Shown: in pieces, positions 58,525 to 64,000 of the stretch
Position numbering within the stretch: the first letter of the stretch is position 1
Layout: each line of letters opens with the position of its first letter
From: Streptomyces sp. HM190
GTDB taxonomy: Bacteria > Actinomycetota > Actinomycetes > Streptomycetales > Streptomycetaceae
Assembly: GCF_009857135.1 (NCBI RefSeq)
Contig: NZ_CP047318.1
Coordinates: 3,162,001 to 3,226,000, forward strand
Direction: 5' to 3'
DNA length: 64,000 bases
Notes under the pieces: model-generated
What the model saw: only the letters and a program-made list of their open reading frames with translations
Told to the model about the DNA's origin: nothing
Database searches by the model: none
Translations under genes and position numbers: made by a program

Positions 58525-58714
58525 GAAAAACCTTTCCGGGTGGCCTCTGGGAGAAGGGAGAATGCAGAGGCGGGTGCGTCCATCATCGCTCACACCGCCG
58601 GGGGCAACCCGGGGGGCGGTCCCGGCGTCTTGGACAACGTCCTGCACACGGGAGGACGTCCCGCGCACGACGTACAGATGAACACAGTGGACGCAGATGG
58701 GGGAGGGCGATCGG

Positions 58715-59788
58715 ATGCCGCAGACCGAGGCGGCCGTAGCACCGGTCACCGAGAGGGCCGGCGCACCGGTCACCGAGGCAGTGCCAGGCACGCACACGCG
58801 GCTCCGCTGGTGGACCGAGTTGCCCCTGATCCTGCTGGTGTACGGGGCGTACTCCGCGGGTCGGCTGCTCGCCCGGGGCGACACGTCGAGCGCCGTCGAG
58901 CACGGCCTGGCGATCCTGCGCTTCGAGAAGGCGCTGGGGCTCAACGCCGAGCATCCGCTGAACCGGCTGTTCACGCGGGAACCCTGGATAGGCATACCCG
59001 CCGACTTCTGGTACGCCTCCCTGCACTACCTGGTCACGCCCGCGCTCCTGGTGTGGCTCTTCCGGACCCACGCCGTGCGCTACCGCGCGGCCCGCACCTG
59101 GCTGATGACCTCCACGTTCATCGGCCTGATCGGCTTCACCCTGCTCCCGACCTGCCCGCCCCGGCTGCTCGACCCGGCGCACGGCTTCGTCGACACCATG
59201 GCCCACTACAGCTCCTGGGGCTGGTGGGGCGGTGAGGCCAGCGCGCCCCGCGGCCTGGGGGGCATGACGAACCAGTACGCGGCGATGCCGAGCCTGCACG
59301 TCGGCTGGGCGCTGTGGTGCGGGGTGATCCTGTGGCGCTTCGGCGGCGGCTCCCGCGCGGTCCGGGTCGCGGCCGTCGCGTACCCCGTGATCACCACGAT
59401 CGTGGTGATGGGCACCGCGAACCACTACTTCCTCGACGCGGCGGCCGGCGCCGCCGTGATGGGCGCCGGTCTGCTGCTGGCGCCACTGGTGCTGCGGACC
59501 GCCGACCGGTGCCGGGCCGCGCTCGGGCTCATGACGGCCGGCGCCGACCGCGCCGACGGCGGCCCGGCGGTCCGCAGCGAGGGCGACGGCGGGCCGCGCC
59601 GGGAGGAGCGCGCGGACGACGCCGCCACCCCCGTCCCGGGGGCCTCCCCCGCCGCCCTGTCCCCGATTGTCAGTGCCGGATGCCAGACTTCGCCGGGTGA
59701 GCGAATTCCACGGCAGCGGATCACCGAACCCGAGCCGGGTGCCGTCCCCTCGGAAGCAGGAGACGGCGCTCCGGCGGCAGCTCGCTGA
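58715..59788 (+). CDS. Membrane PAP2-superfamily phosphatase (PAP2_3 type), second copy
   Basis: About 357 residues with five or six spans. [37 protein letters not shown] (motif 2) and [20 protein letters not shown] (motif 3) define the family. The last 90 residues are a polar cytoplasmic tail, the end of which overlaps the next gene by 92 bases in another frame. GGGAGGG gives 8-base spacing to the ATG at 58715; an ATG at 58697 is an alternative. A lipid phosphate is the probable substrate. Confidence 0.85.
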
Positions 59789-60890
59789 GCTGCGCGGACC
59801 CGAGGTCCCCCCGAAGGCGCTGGACGCGCGGGCCCTCGCCGCGCTCGCGGCCAACCCGGGCTGCGAGCGCCGCGCGCTGCTGGACGGCGCCGGGGTGAAC
59901 AAGGCGGTGCTGGCGGACGCGCTCGGTTCGCCCTCCGCCTTCGGACAGTCCCAGTTCGCCTTCATGCGGGGCAACGCCTTCGAGGCCCGGGTGAAGGCGG
60001 ACGGCGGGGCGGAGCTGCTGAGACTCGTCCACGAGACGCTGGACCCGGGCGCCGAGCCGCCGGCCGGCGCGTCCGTCCCCGACCTCGCCGCCGTCGGCCC
60101 CGAGGGCCGCGCCGCCCGTACGGCACTGGCCCTGAAGGAGGCCACCGACGCGGGCGGCTGGGCGCTGCTCGACCACCCCATGCTGGCGCTGGACGTCGCG
60201 GGCTCCCCCGCCTTCCTGGAGCCGGACGCTGTGGTCGTCCACCCCGACGGCACCTGGACGGTCGTCGAGATCAAGTCCTTCCCGATGCTGGACGGTTCGG
60301 CGGACCCGGCGAAGGTGGGCGCCGCCGCCCGCCAGTCCGCCGTGTACGTCCTGGCGCTGGAGGAGGTGGCCGCCCGGCTCGACCCCGCGCCCGCCGTCCA
60401 CCACCGGGTGCTGCTCGTGTGCCCCAAGGACTTCACCAACCTCCCCACGGCCGCCGCGGTGGACATCCGCAAGCAGCGCGCGGTCACCCGGCGCCAGCTG
60501 ACCCGGCTCACCCGGATCGAGGACATCGCCCGGTCCCTCCCCGAGGGCACCTGCTTCGCCCCCGACCTCCCCCGTGCGGAGCTGACGACCGCCGTCGAGG
60601 CGCTCTCCGCCACCTACGCCCCCGAGTGCCTTTCCGCCTGCGAGCTGGCCTTCCACTGCCGGGCCCGCTCCCGCGCGGACGGCGCCGTCACCTCCCTGGG
60701 ACGCGCCGCGCGGGCCGAGCTGGGGGGACTCACCACCGTCGAGGACGTCCTGGCGGCGGCCCACGGCAGGGCGGGCGATCCCGACGACCCGACGGTGGCG
60801 GCGCTGCGCCGGGCGGCGGAACTGCGCGCGGAGGCCCTCGCGGCGGCCGGTGCCCCCGTCCCGGCCACCGAGGGGGCCATGTGTCACTGA
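59697..60890 (+). CDS. RecB/Cas4-like PD-(D/E)XK nuclease with a predicted iron-sulfur cluster
   Basis: About 397 residues from a GTG. The RecB-type nuclease core shows GNAFEARV near 92-99 (motif I region, Glu96), FLEPDAVV with Asp177, VVEIKSF with Glu191 and Lys193, and a QxxxY motif at Gln213-Tyr217. Four cysteines are placed as in AddB, Cas4 and Dna2: Cys56 (NPGCERRALL) before the core, and Cys311, Cys315 and Cys321 (PECLSACELAFHC) after it. The spacing here is C-x3-C-x5-C, where the usual form is C-x2-C-x5-C. It should cut or trim DNA ends. It overlaps the next gene by 10 bases. The true start may lie later, given the 92-base overlap with the PAP2 gene. Confidence 0.78.
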   Translation: MSEFHGSGSPNPSRVPSPRKQETALRRQLAELRGPEVPPKALDARALAALAANPGCERRALLDGAGVNKAVLADALGSPSAFGQSQFAFMRGNAFEARVKADGGAELLRLVHETLDPGAEPPAGASVPDLAAVGPEGRAARTALALKEATDAGGWALLDHPMLALDVAGSPAFLEPDAVVVHPDGTWTVVEIKSFPMLDGSADPAKVGAAARQSAVYVLALEEVAARLDPAPAVHHRVLLVCPKDFTNLPTAAAVDIRKQRAVTRRQLTRLTRIEDIARSLPEGTCFAPDLPRAELTTAVEALSATYAPECLSACELAFHCRARSRADGAVTSLGRAARAELGGLTTVEDVLAAAHGRAGDPDDPTVAALRRAAELRAEALAAAGAPVPATEGAMCH

Positions 60891-62497
60891 TCGCCACCCT
60901 CGCCCGGCTCGAAGCCATCAGCTCGGGCCGCGCCCAGCCCGCCGCCACCGTCCTGCACCGGCATCTGACGGCGACCCCGCTCGTGTTCGTGCCGCTCACC
61001 ACCGCCGGTGAGGCCGGGGCCCCGCTCGGGGCGCTCGTCGGCACCGACCGGGACGCGCCCCGGCTGCTGGTCGTCCCCCAGCCCCGCGACCGCGACCTGC
61101 GCTTCGCGTTCCTGGCCGAGCTGGCGGACGTCGTCCTGCCGTACGTGGACGCGTACGCCGACGTCGTGGAGGCGGCCGAGCGCACCGAGACCGACCCGGA
61201 GACCGGCAAGCGGGTCAAGGTCGAGGTCGAGCTGTGCGCGGACGCCCCGCAGCTGATCGTGCCGAGCCGCACCGGCATCGACTTCGTCCGGCTCCTCGGG
61301 CGCTCCATGCGGTTCCGGCGGACCGCCGAGCAGGACCCGGAGGCCCCCCACCCGGCGCCGCCGCGGGTGCCGCTGCTCGGGCGGTGGCTCACCCACTTCG
61401 GGGAGCGGGCGCGGGTGCCCGGCTCCTCGCTGCTGCTCGCCCTGACCGATCTGCTGTCACGGCACTGGGCGACCGGGCAGTCCGGCGTCGAGGACCAGCA
61501 CCTCGCGTCGCTGCTCGCCTGGATCGACCCGCCCGAGGGCGAGTCCGGTGAGGCGGCGGCGCGGCGGGCGGAGCTGGCGCGGGACGCCGAGGGCCAGCTG
61601 CTGTGCCCGCCCGCCGGTCCGGCGACGGACCCGGCGTTCGACAACAAGCTGCTGGCCCCGGCCATCGAGCGGTACGACCGGGCGCGGCTGGCGCTGGCCG
61701 CCGCCGAGGACGGTCTGGAGGCCGACGCGCGGCTGGGCGCGCTGACCGCCGCCGAGCGCGAGATCCGCGCCCTCGTCGAGAGCCGCACCCGGCCCACGTG
61801 GGACGCCGTCTGGCACGGCCTCGACCTGCTGCGCGCCCTGCCGGAGGGCGCCCACGCGGCCGACCGGTGGACCCGCGACCGCTGGTCCTTCACCGCCCAC
61901 CGGGACCGGATCACCGCCGGGGAGCCCCCGCAGCCCCGCATCGACGACGCGGTCACCGCCGCGAACAAACTGGCCGCGCGGGAGCGGGAGCAGGCCCGGC
62001 TCGACGCCCAGGAGGCCCTCGACGACCCGCTGGTCATGGCGGGGCGGCGGCTGTCCGGGGAGGCGTTCGCCGGTGAGGTCACCGATGTCGTGATGGCGTA
62101 CGGCGAGGGGAAGCGGCCGAGCCCCCGGCCGCTGGTCACCGTACGGACGCGGGACCGGCCGCATCTCGGGGAGCGGGTGAAGGTGTACCGCTCGCTGGGC
62201 GGGAAGCCGCAGACCGCCGAGTTCGTGGCCGCCGAGGACCAGGGCGGGGACACCGACGGCGGCGAGGTGCTCCTCGTGCTGCGGATCATGGACAAGATGG
62301 GGCGGGGCAAGGAGCCGGAGGTCGGTTCGGTCCCCGAGAAGGGCGACCGGGTCTGCTTCACGCTGTTCGAGCACGATCAGCGGGGCGGGGCGAAGCTGCC
62401 CGACCCCGAGGACACCCCGTGGACGCACGGCGGGCCGCCGGGCGAGCCCGACGCCGTACCGCTGCCGGACCCGGTGACCGAGGAGGACGTCCTGTGA
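60881..62497 (+). CDS. Unrecognised middle protein of the nuclease-helicase cassette
   Basis: A 538-residue protein with a GTG start inside the end of the nuclease gene. No family is recognised. Visible regions: residues 1-95 mixed alpha/beta (LVFVPLTTAGEAGAPLGALV; FAFLAELADVVLPYVDAYAD). A charged helical region covers about 220-390. A strand-rich C-terminal stretch at about 397-498 (AGEVTDVVMAYGEGK, PLVTVRTRDRPHLGERVKVY, VLLVLRIMDKMGRG, GDRVCFTLFEHDQ) could be a beta-barrel like the domain linking nuclease and helicase in Dna2, or the 1B domain of Upf1-like helicases. That is inference. Its stop overlaps the helicase start by 4 bases, so the three products are made together. Confidence 0.65.
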   Translation: MSLIATLARLEAISSGRAQPAATVLHRHLTATPLVFVPLTTAGEAGAPLGALVGTDRDAPRLLVVPQPRDRDLRFAFLAELADVVLPYVDAYADVVEAAERTETDPETGKRVKVEVELCADAPQLIVPSRTGIDFVRLLGRSMRFRRTAEQDPEAPHPAPPRVPLLGRWLTHFGERARVPGSSLLLALTDLLSRHWATGQSGVEDQHLASLLAWIDPPEGESGEAAARRAELARDAEGQLLCPPAGPATDPAFDNKLLAPAIERYDRARLALAAAEDGLEADARLGALTAAEREIRALVESRTRPTWDAVWHGLDLLRALPEGAHAADRWTRDRWSFTAHRDRITAGEPPQPRIDDAVTAANKLAAREREQARLDAQEALDDPLVMAGRRLSGEAFAGEVTDVVMAYGEGKRPSPRPLVTVRTRDRPHLGERVKVYRSLGGKPQTAEFVAAEDQGGDTDGGEVLLVLRIMDKMGRGKEPEVGSVPEKGDRVCFTLFEHDQRGGAKLPDPEDTPWTHGGPPGEPDAVPLPDPVTEEDVL

Positions 62498-63837
62498 CCA
62501 GCGCCGAGGCTGTGCTCGATCCCGGGGCGGCGGCCGGCCGGGCCACCGAGGCGATCCTGCGCGACACCCTGCACGGCACGCACCGCGGGGTGGTGGTCGA
62601 CTCGCCGCCCGGCGCCGGCAAGTCCACGCTCGTCGTGCGCGCCGCGCGGGAGCTGGCCGCCGCCGGACGCCCGCTGATGGTCATCGCGCAGACCAACGCG
62701 CAGGTCGACGACCTGGTGATCCGGCTCTCGGAGAAGGACCCCGAGCTGCCGGTGGGCCGGCTGCACAGCAGTGACTCCGACCCGTACGACAAGGCGCTCG
62801 ACGCCCTGCCGAACGTGAGGAAGTCGACGAAGGCGGCCGAGCTGGCGGGCCTCGACGTCGTGATCTCCACGGCCGCGAAGTGGGCCCACGTCAAGGGTGT
62901 CGAGCCGTGGCGGCACGCGATCGTCGACGAGGCGTACCAGATGCGGTCGGACGCGCTGCTGGCCGTGGCGGGGCTGTTCGAGCGGGCGCTGTTCGTGGGC
63001 GACCCCGGGCAGCTGGACCCGTTCTCGATCGTGGGCGGCGAGCAGTGGGCGGGACTGTCGTACGACCCGTCGGCCTCGGCGGTGACGACGCTGCTGGCGC
63101 ACAACCCCGAGCTGCCGCAGCACCGGCTGCCGGTGTCGTGGCGGCTCCCGGCGTCGGCCGCGCCGCTCGTCTCCGACGCGTTCTACCCGTTCACGCCGTT
63201 CCGCAGCGGGACGGGGCACGGGGACCGGCGGCTCGCCTTCGCGGTGCCGTCCGACGGCTCCGGCCCGGACCGGGTCATCGACGAGGCCGCCGAGTCGGGA
63301 TGGGGGCTGCTGGAGCTGCCGGCCCGCCACACGCCCCGGACCGACCCCGAGGCGGTACGGGCGGTCGCGCTGGTCGTTCGGCGGCTGCTGGACCGGGGCG
63401 GGGCGGCGACGTCGGAGCGGGCGGAGGAGCCGGCGCCGCTGACGGCCGACCGGATCGCCGTCGGCACGGCCCACCGGGACCAGGCCGCCGCGGTGCGCTC
63501 CGCGCTGGCCGAGCTGGGGGTGTCCGACGTGGTGGTCGACACCGCCAACCGGCTCCAGGGCCGGGAGTACGACGTGACCGTCGTCCTGCACCCGCTCTCC
63601 GGCCGCCCCGACGCGACGGCCTTCCACCTGGAGACCGGACGCCTGTGCGTGCTCGCCTCGCGCCACCGGCACGCCTGCATCGTCGTCTGCCGCGCGGGGG
63701 TGACCGACCTCCTGGACGACCATCCGTCCACCGAGCCGGTGCAGCTGGGCGTGACCGTCAAGTTCCCGGACGGCTGGGAGGCGAACCACGCGGTCCTGGC
63801 CGAGCTGGGAGAACACCGAGTCGTCTGGCAACCGTAA
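62494..63837 (+). CDS. Compact SF1 (Upf1/Dna2-like) DNA helicase
   Basis: A 447-residue two-RecA-domain helicase with a GTG start. Walker A is SPPGAGKST (37-45), motif Ia AQTNAQVDDLVI, motif II AIVDEAYQM (Asp145-Glu146; the fourth letter Tyr is unusual), motif III FVGDPGQLDPFS, motif IV SWRLPASAAP, motif V VDTANRLQGREYDVTVV and motif VI CVLASRHRHACIVV. The Q-L-P/D-like GDPGQLDP and the S-x-R-L-P pattern place it with SF1B-type Upf1/Dna2 helicases. Accessory 1B and 2B domains are minimal. It is the last gene of the cassette and likely works with the Fe-S nuclease. Confidence 0.85.
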   Translation: MTSAEAVLDPGAAAGRATEAILRDTLHGTHRGVVVDSPPGAGKSTLVVRAARELAAAGRPLMVIAQTNAQVDDLVIRLSEKDPELPVGRLHSSDSDPYDKALDALPNVRKSTKAAELAGLDVVISTAAKWAHVKGVEPWRHAIVDEAYQMRSDALLAVAGLFERALFVGDPGQLDPFSIVGGEQWAGLSYDPSASAVTTLLAHNPELPQHRLPVSWRLPASAAPLVSDAFYPFTPFRSGTGHGDRRLAFAVPSDGSGPDRVIDEAAESGWGLLELPARHTPRTDPEAVRAVALVVRRLLDRGGAATSERAEEPAPLTADRIAVGTAHRDQAAAVRSALAELGVSDVVVDTANRLQGREYDVTVVLHPLSGRPDATAFHLETGRLCVLASRHRHACIVVCRAGVTDLLDDHPSTEPVQLGVTVKFPDGWEANHAVLAELGEHRVVWQP

Positions 63838-63913
63838 GCCGCACGACGGAACGGGACCGACGACGACACCGACCACCCGCCCGGCCGAGCACCACCCCAC
63901 CACCACCCGAACC

Positions 63914-63930
63914 GCCGGACAGAGTCCGGC
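63914..63930 (+). terminator. Hairpin after the helicase gene
   Basis: GCCGGAC-AGA-GTCCGGC is a perfect 7-bp stem 77 bases past the helicase stop. A second GC-rich hairpin follows at about 63933-63949. This is a weak terminator candidate. Confidence 0.4.
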
Positions 63931-63960
63931 ACGCCGCCGACAGGCGGCCGAACGCAACAG

Positions 63961-64000
63961 CCCGGACGGCTGGGAGGCGAACCACGCGGTCCTGGCCGAG
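63961..64000 (+). repeat. 40-base exact copy of the helicase 3' coding end
   Basis: The last 40 bases of the window are identical to 63765-63804, which encode PDGWEANHAVLAE in the helicase gene. The copies start 196 bases apart. The match begins abruptly at CCCGGACGGC and runs off the window edge, so its full length is unknown. Confidence 0.9.

Follow-up and report, generated by a model that had tools for sequence, protein, structure and literature searches.

The 64,000-nucleotide stretch of Streptomyces sp. HM190 analysed here (the window) lies within a single 7.76 Mb contig and carries three overlapping genes, A, B and C, at 59697-63837. Our analysis suggests that they probably encode three subunits of one ATP-driven helicase-nuclease, similar to Dna2 and to the bacterial protein Bad, and that the core copy found in the window would trim 5' flaps or resect DNA ends, the exact substrate being the less certain part of this proposal. 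The helicase motor itself, of superfamily 1B (SF1B), probably consists of two separate parts, one in B and the other in C. The genes and their main features are as follows.

59697..60890, plus strand: gene A, putative Cas4/RecB-type PD-(D/E)XK nuclease with a four-cysteine pattern (iron-sulfur, or Fe-S, staple), 397 residues
59862..59864, plus strand: codon of C56, the first predicted Fe-S ligand
60225..60347, plus strand: nuclease motifs D177, E191-x-K193 and Q213-x3-Y217 of A
60627..60659, plus strand: codons of C311-x3-C315-x5-C321, the remaining predicted Fe-S ligands
60881..62497, plus strand: gene B, N-terminal domain (about residues 1-355) and C-terminal stalk and beta-barrel (modelled), 538 residues
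61943..62395, plus strand: B residues 355-505, which in the model resemble the stalk and 1B beta-barrel of Upf1-like SF1B helicases
62494..63837, plus strand: gene C, SF1B motor (RecA folds 1A and 2A) without a stalk or 1B domain of its own, 447 residues
62599..62628, plus strand: helicase motif I, DSPPGAGKST, C residues 36-45
62926..62931, plus strand: helicase motif II, DE, C residues 145-146

Each of the three genes starts with GTG (at 59697, 60881 and 62494). A overlaps B by 10 bases and B overlaps C by 4 bases, as the initial annotation had stated and the translations bore out, and the order A-B-C is the domain order of Dna2. In 14-row alignments, the identity to the window's proteins was 74-90% for A, 78-92% for B and 87-95% for C in the 12 rows from the same genus, and 49%, 48% and 61%, respectively, in the single row from another genus. 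The three were taken as real genes because of this conservation; the mechanical list of open reading frames contains many spurious ones.

Evidence for a common function comes from the association of the three genes. A total of 85 loci with any of them was collected, comprising the window's own, four from the phylum sample and the 80 best relatives of A (the best 80 of 559 from a scan of all phyla, all of them in Streptomyces). The order A-B-C on one strand was found in 81 of the 85, and the remaining four are interrupted by a contig end. When gene starts were projected from the proteins of the window, 73 of these 81 loci showed the exact 10-base overlap of A and B, and 54 an overlap of B and C. 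In an evenly drawn sample of 394 genomes of the class, in which C was counted at E<=1e-30, A and C were each present in 70 and B in 71, of which one is a chance match at 20 bits; apart from that match, the same 70 genomes carry all three genes. Of these carriers, 39 belong to the own genus, of which 40 genomes had been sampled, and the other 31 come from five families. The finding that would have spoken against a joint machine, namely that the three genes are mostly apart in other genomes, was thus not made in either survey.

Among 35 further loci that were read, A adjoins B in all 35 and C adjoins them in 32, in one of which (L155) C reads in two pieces. C lies 36 kb from A-B in genome G232 and 49 kb from it in G333, both of which keep the gene, and the third locus without an adjoining C ends with its contig. 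The retention of C after relocation suggests a working link between the genes, beyond mere neighbourhood. A second copy was found in five genomes of the genus, with all three genes in every second copy. Within the phylum samples, B was found in the same class only (5/149 and 10/217), and outside its own phylum it was surveyed through plasmid and phage collections. The best reading is that A-B-C is a housekeeping set in Streptomyces.

The description of C as a 447-residue SF1B-like helicase with its motifs agreed with the Pfam results, in which AAA_11, AAA_30 and AAA_12 scored above cut-off, and UvrD_C_2 reached E 0.13 only, below cut-off. Besides motifs I and II, C carries GDPGQ at residues 169-173 and the later SF1 motifs. 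Its nearest solved sequences are SMUBP-2/IGHMBP2 and DNA2. The profile of C from residue 28 aligns with IGHMBP2 from residue 204 (4b3f 204-611), and C is therefore without the approximately 200 residues that hold the stalk and the 1B barrel in IGHMBP2. Judged by its sequence, C is an Upf1/IGHMBP2/Dna2-type SF1B motor that begins almost at motif I.

The domain that C is without may be found at the end of B. The model of B reached a mean predicted local distance difference test (pLDDT) of 53, and only its C-terminal part is usable because the alignment is shallow (14 rows); residues of about 370-497 have values of mostly 70-86 and are modelled as a region rich in helices and, after it, a barrel of six strands. 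When residues 359-505 were compared by VIA-align with the best 1000 Foldseek chains, the top six rows were IGHMBP2, SETX, DNA2, Sen1 (two rows) and SETX, with Z scores of 7.4-8.6. On this weak model, the match to IGHMBP2 (4b3f) 12-150 had Z 8.6 and a root-mean-square deviation (rmsd) of 4.1 with 117 residues aligned, and that to DNA2 456-567 had Z 7.7 and an rmsd of 3.2 with 103 aligned. It is suggestive that the top structural matches appear to be exactly the domain that C is without. The model thus points weakly to residues 355-505 of B as the stalk and 1B barrel of an SF1B motor, and with this match beside a motor without that domain, a split motor is the most likely reading.

The initial annotation recognised no family in the 538-residue middle protein, and indeed B had no match at E<=1 in Pfam, NCBIfam or PADLOC, nor had any of 36 B members. 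Its suggestion that B may end in a beta-barrel held for the C-terminus, as far as the weak model goes, but most of B is something different, as residues of about 1-355 form another domain that matches no known family.

For A, the proposed class of RecB-type, Cas4-like nucleases was supported by structure comparison of a model with a pLDDT of 90. Foldseek placed the Cas4-family ACE1, MGME1 and RecE at the top and also retrieved Cas4, EXO5, AdnA, Dna2 and AddB, with three rows at E<=0.001. VIA-align ranked Cas4 first (7mi4 chain A, Z 10.9, residues 23-334, rmsd 4.4 over 199), and gave Z scores of up to 8.6 for AddAB, up to 8.2 for AdnA chains and 7.0 for Dna2. The predicted fold can be assigned with good confidence to the Cas4/EXO5/AddAB/Dna2 nuclease type. 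A shares this modelled fold with Cas4 but matches no Cas4 profile, and it had no family at E<=1 in Pfam, NCBIfam or PADLOC, the Cas4 profiles included. A comparison of 36 A members with the families returned weak matches only (PDDEXK_1 in 4/36, best E 0.013; NERD in two; five families in one member each). Three profile matches of A in the PDB were set aside as chance, two being designed repeat proteins and one standing at E 0.66.

The motifs named beforehand for A (C56, D177, E191-x-K193, QxxxY and C311-x3-C315-x5-C321) were all found as claimed. In a 36-row alignment from six families, C311, C315, C321, D177 and Y217 are present in all rows and C56 in the 35 readable ones, one further row reading X, so the cysteines are conserved across orthologues as the initial annotation required. 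E191 is present in 34 of the 36 rows and K193 in 35. The four-cysteine pattern is given as the signature of an iron staple in the part of PMC7430649 used here, and the four cysteines of A would accordingly be expected to bind an Fe-S cluster.

Relatives on plasmids also bear on the split of the motor. Matches to C were found on 65 plasmid records, with three A-B-C copies first, followed by proteins annotated as AAA family ATPases, mostly at 31-38% identity, in Rhodococcus, mycobacteria, Euzebya and others. In the three records opened (M. alvei, Euzebya pacifica and R. opacus B4), the C relative (C', 432-451 residues) is preceded by a hypothetical protein of 392-448 residues. This protein, B', was matched on 44 plasmid records, and the B profile aligned with it over B 123-502 (hhalign probability 95.5, E 1.4e-8, three sequences). 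B'-C' pairs without A occur on plasmids of Euzebya, Rhodococcus and Mycolicibacterium, which supports the view that the split of the motor is old. The pairing is not universal, since two opened Pseudarthrobacter plasmids have no gene of B' size ahead of the C relative on the same strand. On a Mycolicibacterium plasmid (L188, 2793-8137) and a Rhodococcus plasmid (L190, 3032-8134), genes for a MoxR/other AAA ATPase, a VWA protein, a B'-like and a C-like protein stand in a row, possibly a nuclease-free module.

Taken together, these data are consistent with the following arrangement. C would be the core (1A and 2A) of an SF1B motor moving 5'-3', and B would supply the stalk and 1B barrel to it in trans, domains that sit before motif I in single-chain Upf1-like motors, and would also link the motor to the nuclease. 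For A, the analogy suggests a nuclease ring of the Cas4/Dna2 kind, which would be held by an Fe-S cluster and would cut single-stranded DNA threaded through it. According to the portion of PMC4716839 on which we draw, Dna2 is a cylinder with the nuclease ring at its base, the barrel and 1A on top and a two-helix stalk holding the barrel, and SF1B Upf1-like motors move 5'-3'. Bad likewise unwinds 5'-3' and cuts single-stranded DNA, as PMC7430649 reports. We propose 5'-flap trimming or end resection because Upf1-like SF1B motors and Bad work 5'-3' and Bad cuts single-stranded DNA; for the Streptomyces core copy, the most likely role would be 5' flap trimming or resection of broken or stalled DNA ends in routine genome upkeep.

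The idea of a Dna2 in pieces put forward in the initial annotation is supported by the gene order and by the best matches of the barrel, which on the weak B model are the stalk and 1B of DNA2-like helicases. Eukaryotic Dna2, with which the comparison was made there, is not the sole yardstick, as the single-chain bacterial proteins Bad and TM0106 exist. In the sections of PMC7430649 consulted, Bad of Geobacillus stearothermophilus has the same order as A, B and C, with a four-cysteine Fe-S nuclease of RecB type, a central domain and an SF1B motor, and the central domain is said to have no known structure and to be absent from eukaryotic DNA2. Bad differs in being one monomeric polypeptide, rare and sporadic, and in standing beside a methyltransferase in Geobacilli (PMC7430649, same sections). 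Eukaryotic DNA2 has the order nuclease, stalk/beta-barrel and helicase of about 450 residues (PMC4716839, in the portion cited above), and A resembles it in predicted fold and C in sequence; it differs in its single chain, its OB domain and its interaction with Rpa, and no counterpart of B 1-355 was found in it. The one-polypeptide criterion of the DNA2/Bad type fails here, with three open reading frames in the window and separate genes in all 81 complete loci, and these separate chains set A-B-C apart from its members as a variant.

Proteins annotated as TM0106 (TIGR03491), found in Piscirickettsia, Rhizobium and Acaryochloris, also combine a nuclease with a helicase. They share the motor, as C aligns with their C-terminal helicase (hhalign probability 99.4, three sequences), but they are single chains and A had no hhalign match to the three proteins. 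TIGR03491 itself had no NCBIfam match in A, B or C, nor in the whole genome. AddAB and AdnAB resemble A in joining a RecB-type nuclease (with Fe-S in AddB) to helicase subunits in end resection, but their motors are UvrD-like SF1A, whereas C is Upf1-like SF1B. In IGHMBP2, Upf1 and Senataxin, the parts matched by the modelled B barrel and by the C motor (4b3f 12-150 and 204-611) lie in one chain, and these are single chains without a nuclease. As far as we searched, which was in open-access titles and the openings of abstracts, no description of the split form was found.

A fourth gene, D, stands upstream of A in 16 loci (L146-L148, L150, L157, L160, L161, L163, L166-L170 and L181-L183). It encodes 256-324 residues as called, with a coiled coil (by eye) and then a conserved domain, and the two members tested had no Pfam family at cut-off. 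D was present in 22 of the 394 genomes: 20 copies are in A-B-C genomes, all adjoining A, one is a lone relative without A-B-C (G224) and one is a fragment (G406). It stands beside all 12 f62 sets, in the own genus it stands beside the five second copies only, and the window's own type of copy is without it. We considered D as a marker of a defence lineage, but dropped the idea because every one of the 12 f62 genomes carrying A-B-C has D with it as well.

It is also possible, although we hold this only tentatively, that an SF1B motor was permanently split between stalk/1B and the RecA folds long ago, that a Cas4-like nuclease was gained in Streptomyces to give a fixed Dna2-like resection machine, and that accessory copies work with D and with SbcCD or Wadjet in defence islands. 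These accessory copies may serve defence. An alternative is that A-B-C is chiefly an anti-phage or anti-plasmid system degrading foreign DNA with the help of D and SbcCD or Wadjet, and that the core copy was domesticated and fixed. Defence- or SbcCD-like neighbours occur at 8 of the 16 D loci, namely L163 (SbcD-like, SbcC and Wadjet II JetA/JetB/JetC), the second copies L166 (HmaA and PprPDDEXK), L167 (PprPDDEXK and a type-III-restriction-like gene) and L168-L170 (SbcD-like, with SbcC in two, and a restriction-like helicase), and the plasmids L181 (SbcCD and Wadjet I) and L183 (Wadjet I); L164 likewise adjoins SbcCD-like genes. In a tree of C, in which some joins are unsure owing to long branches, nine Streptomyces core copies form one 100/100 clade, and L163 (f89) groups at 100/100 with two Streptomyces plasmid copies, as after a transfer; these three join L160 (f62) and L168-L170 at 86/80, with L166 apart. 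Bad, too, is suspected of being part of a restriction system in the part of PMC7430649 cited. Against this stands the presence of the window's copy type, without D, in nearly every sampled genome of the genus, and 0/10 neighbours of the window's copy match PADLOC at E<=0.001. The other 8 D loci (f62 type and Nonomuraea) have no SbcD/SbcC cluster member, few of their neighbours having been scanned for defence genes. Neither A nor B matches a PADLOC model, and B, the one protein of the three searched there, had no match in 50,697 phage records and none in viral contigs by pattern scan. We regard a chiefly defensive role as rather unlikely.

Several observations nevertheless weigh against a DNA helicase-nuclease devoted to genome upkeep. 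The top NCBIfam match of C is the helicase of the PLuB system, at 55 bits and far below cut-off, and among the known defence systems of PADLOC-DB C has partial helicase matches only, up to 31 bits, Mko proteins included; by sequence, these lean a little to defence. The catalytic E191 of A is lost in L161 (9616-10698) and L166 (9020-10177), in L166 together with K193, and all four cysteines are kept, which suggests that cutting is not always needed and that the nuclease ring is kept there as if for structure. The model of B is poor overall, Foldseek alone gave no match of B at E<=0.001, its profile matches no solved sequence in the PDB, and by hhalign B matches no part of the three TM0106 proteins. 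RNA can also be the substrate of Upf1-like SF1B motors, and no SOS-like box precedes A, the window's matches to the motif being at chance (21 against 18 expected). The ferredoxin-reductase barrels that come next after the helicases in the comparison with B (up to Z 7.2, on the weak model) would also suit another explanation, in which the three genes share a transcript but their products are not parts of a single machine, C being a short SF1B helicase complete in itself and the barrel of B being of an unrelated nucleic-acid-binding or reductase type. RecD2-type SF1B helicases without stalk and barrel are known (PMC4716839, portion cited). However, C belongs with Upf1/IGHMBP2/DNA2, the genes are strictly retained together even when C is unlinked, and B'-C' pairs recur without A, and we therefore consider separate functions improbable.

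Streptomyces are a major source of antibiotics and have linear, unstable chromosomes, and a core helicase-nuclease in nearly all of the sampled ones could be a component so far missing from the picture of their DNA repair. If the motor is indeed divided between 1B and 1A, mixing subunits would allow a test of what the 1B barrel and the stalk do in SF1B helicases. SbcCD is the bacterial Mre11-Rad50, and the association of some copies with D and SbcCD would, if true, be a bacterial parallel to Mre11-Rad50 with Dna2. A telomere-only role, suggested by accessory copies near contig or linear-plasmid ends (L168, L181), was dropped for the core copy, because the set is central in the 7.76 Mb contig and, in Nonomuraea, lies in a circular record.

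The genes around the window's copy encode a histidine phosphatase, a PAP2 phosphatase, TerC, a heliorhodopsin and GGDEF/EAL proteins. The open reading frame of the upstream PAP2 phosphatase (58697-59788, Pfam PAP2_3) shares 92 bases with the beginning of A, and the heliorhodopsin gene is located some 2 kb past the end of C (L088 2731-3636; Pfam 315 bits). A GGDEF/EAL gene follows about 7 kb after C (L088 7705-9711). In G232, where C is relocated, B is followed by a gene (L154 5749-8082) that is GGDEF/EAL-like by eye and that BLAST groups with genes from other loci.

A near-exact copy of the last 72 or so bases of C was observed 124 bases past its stop, starting at 63962. The tail-copy region spans 63912-64000 and runs about 34 bases past the end of the window (L088 ~912-1033), and a conserved two-hairpin element (CCGGACNGAGTCCGGCACGCCGCC... 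then ACAGC) precedes the copy. One or two copies of the C tail were found in 21 of 80 loci, the window's included, in a wider scan, and in 21 of 72 loci without the window's in a narrower one, where L081 is a self-overlap. In 41 genomes of the genus, all six hits at 0-1 mismatch (own included) adjoin two tail copies, and eight hits with 2 mismatches do not. The tail copies are alike within a genome and different between species.

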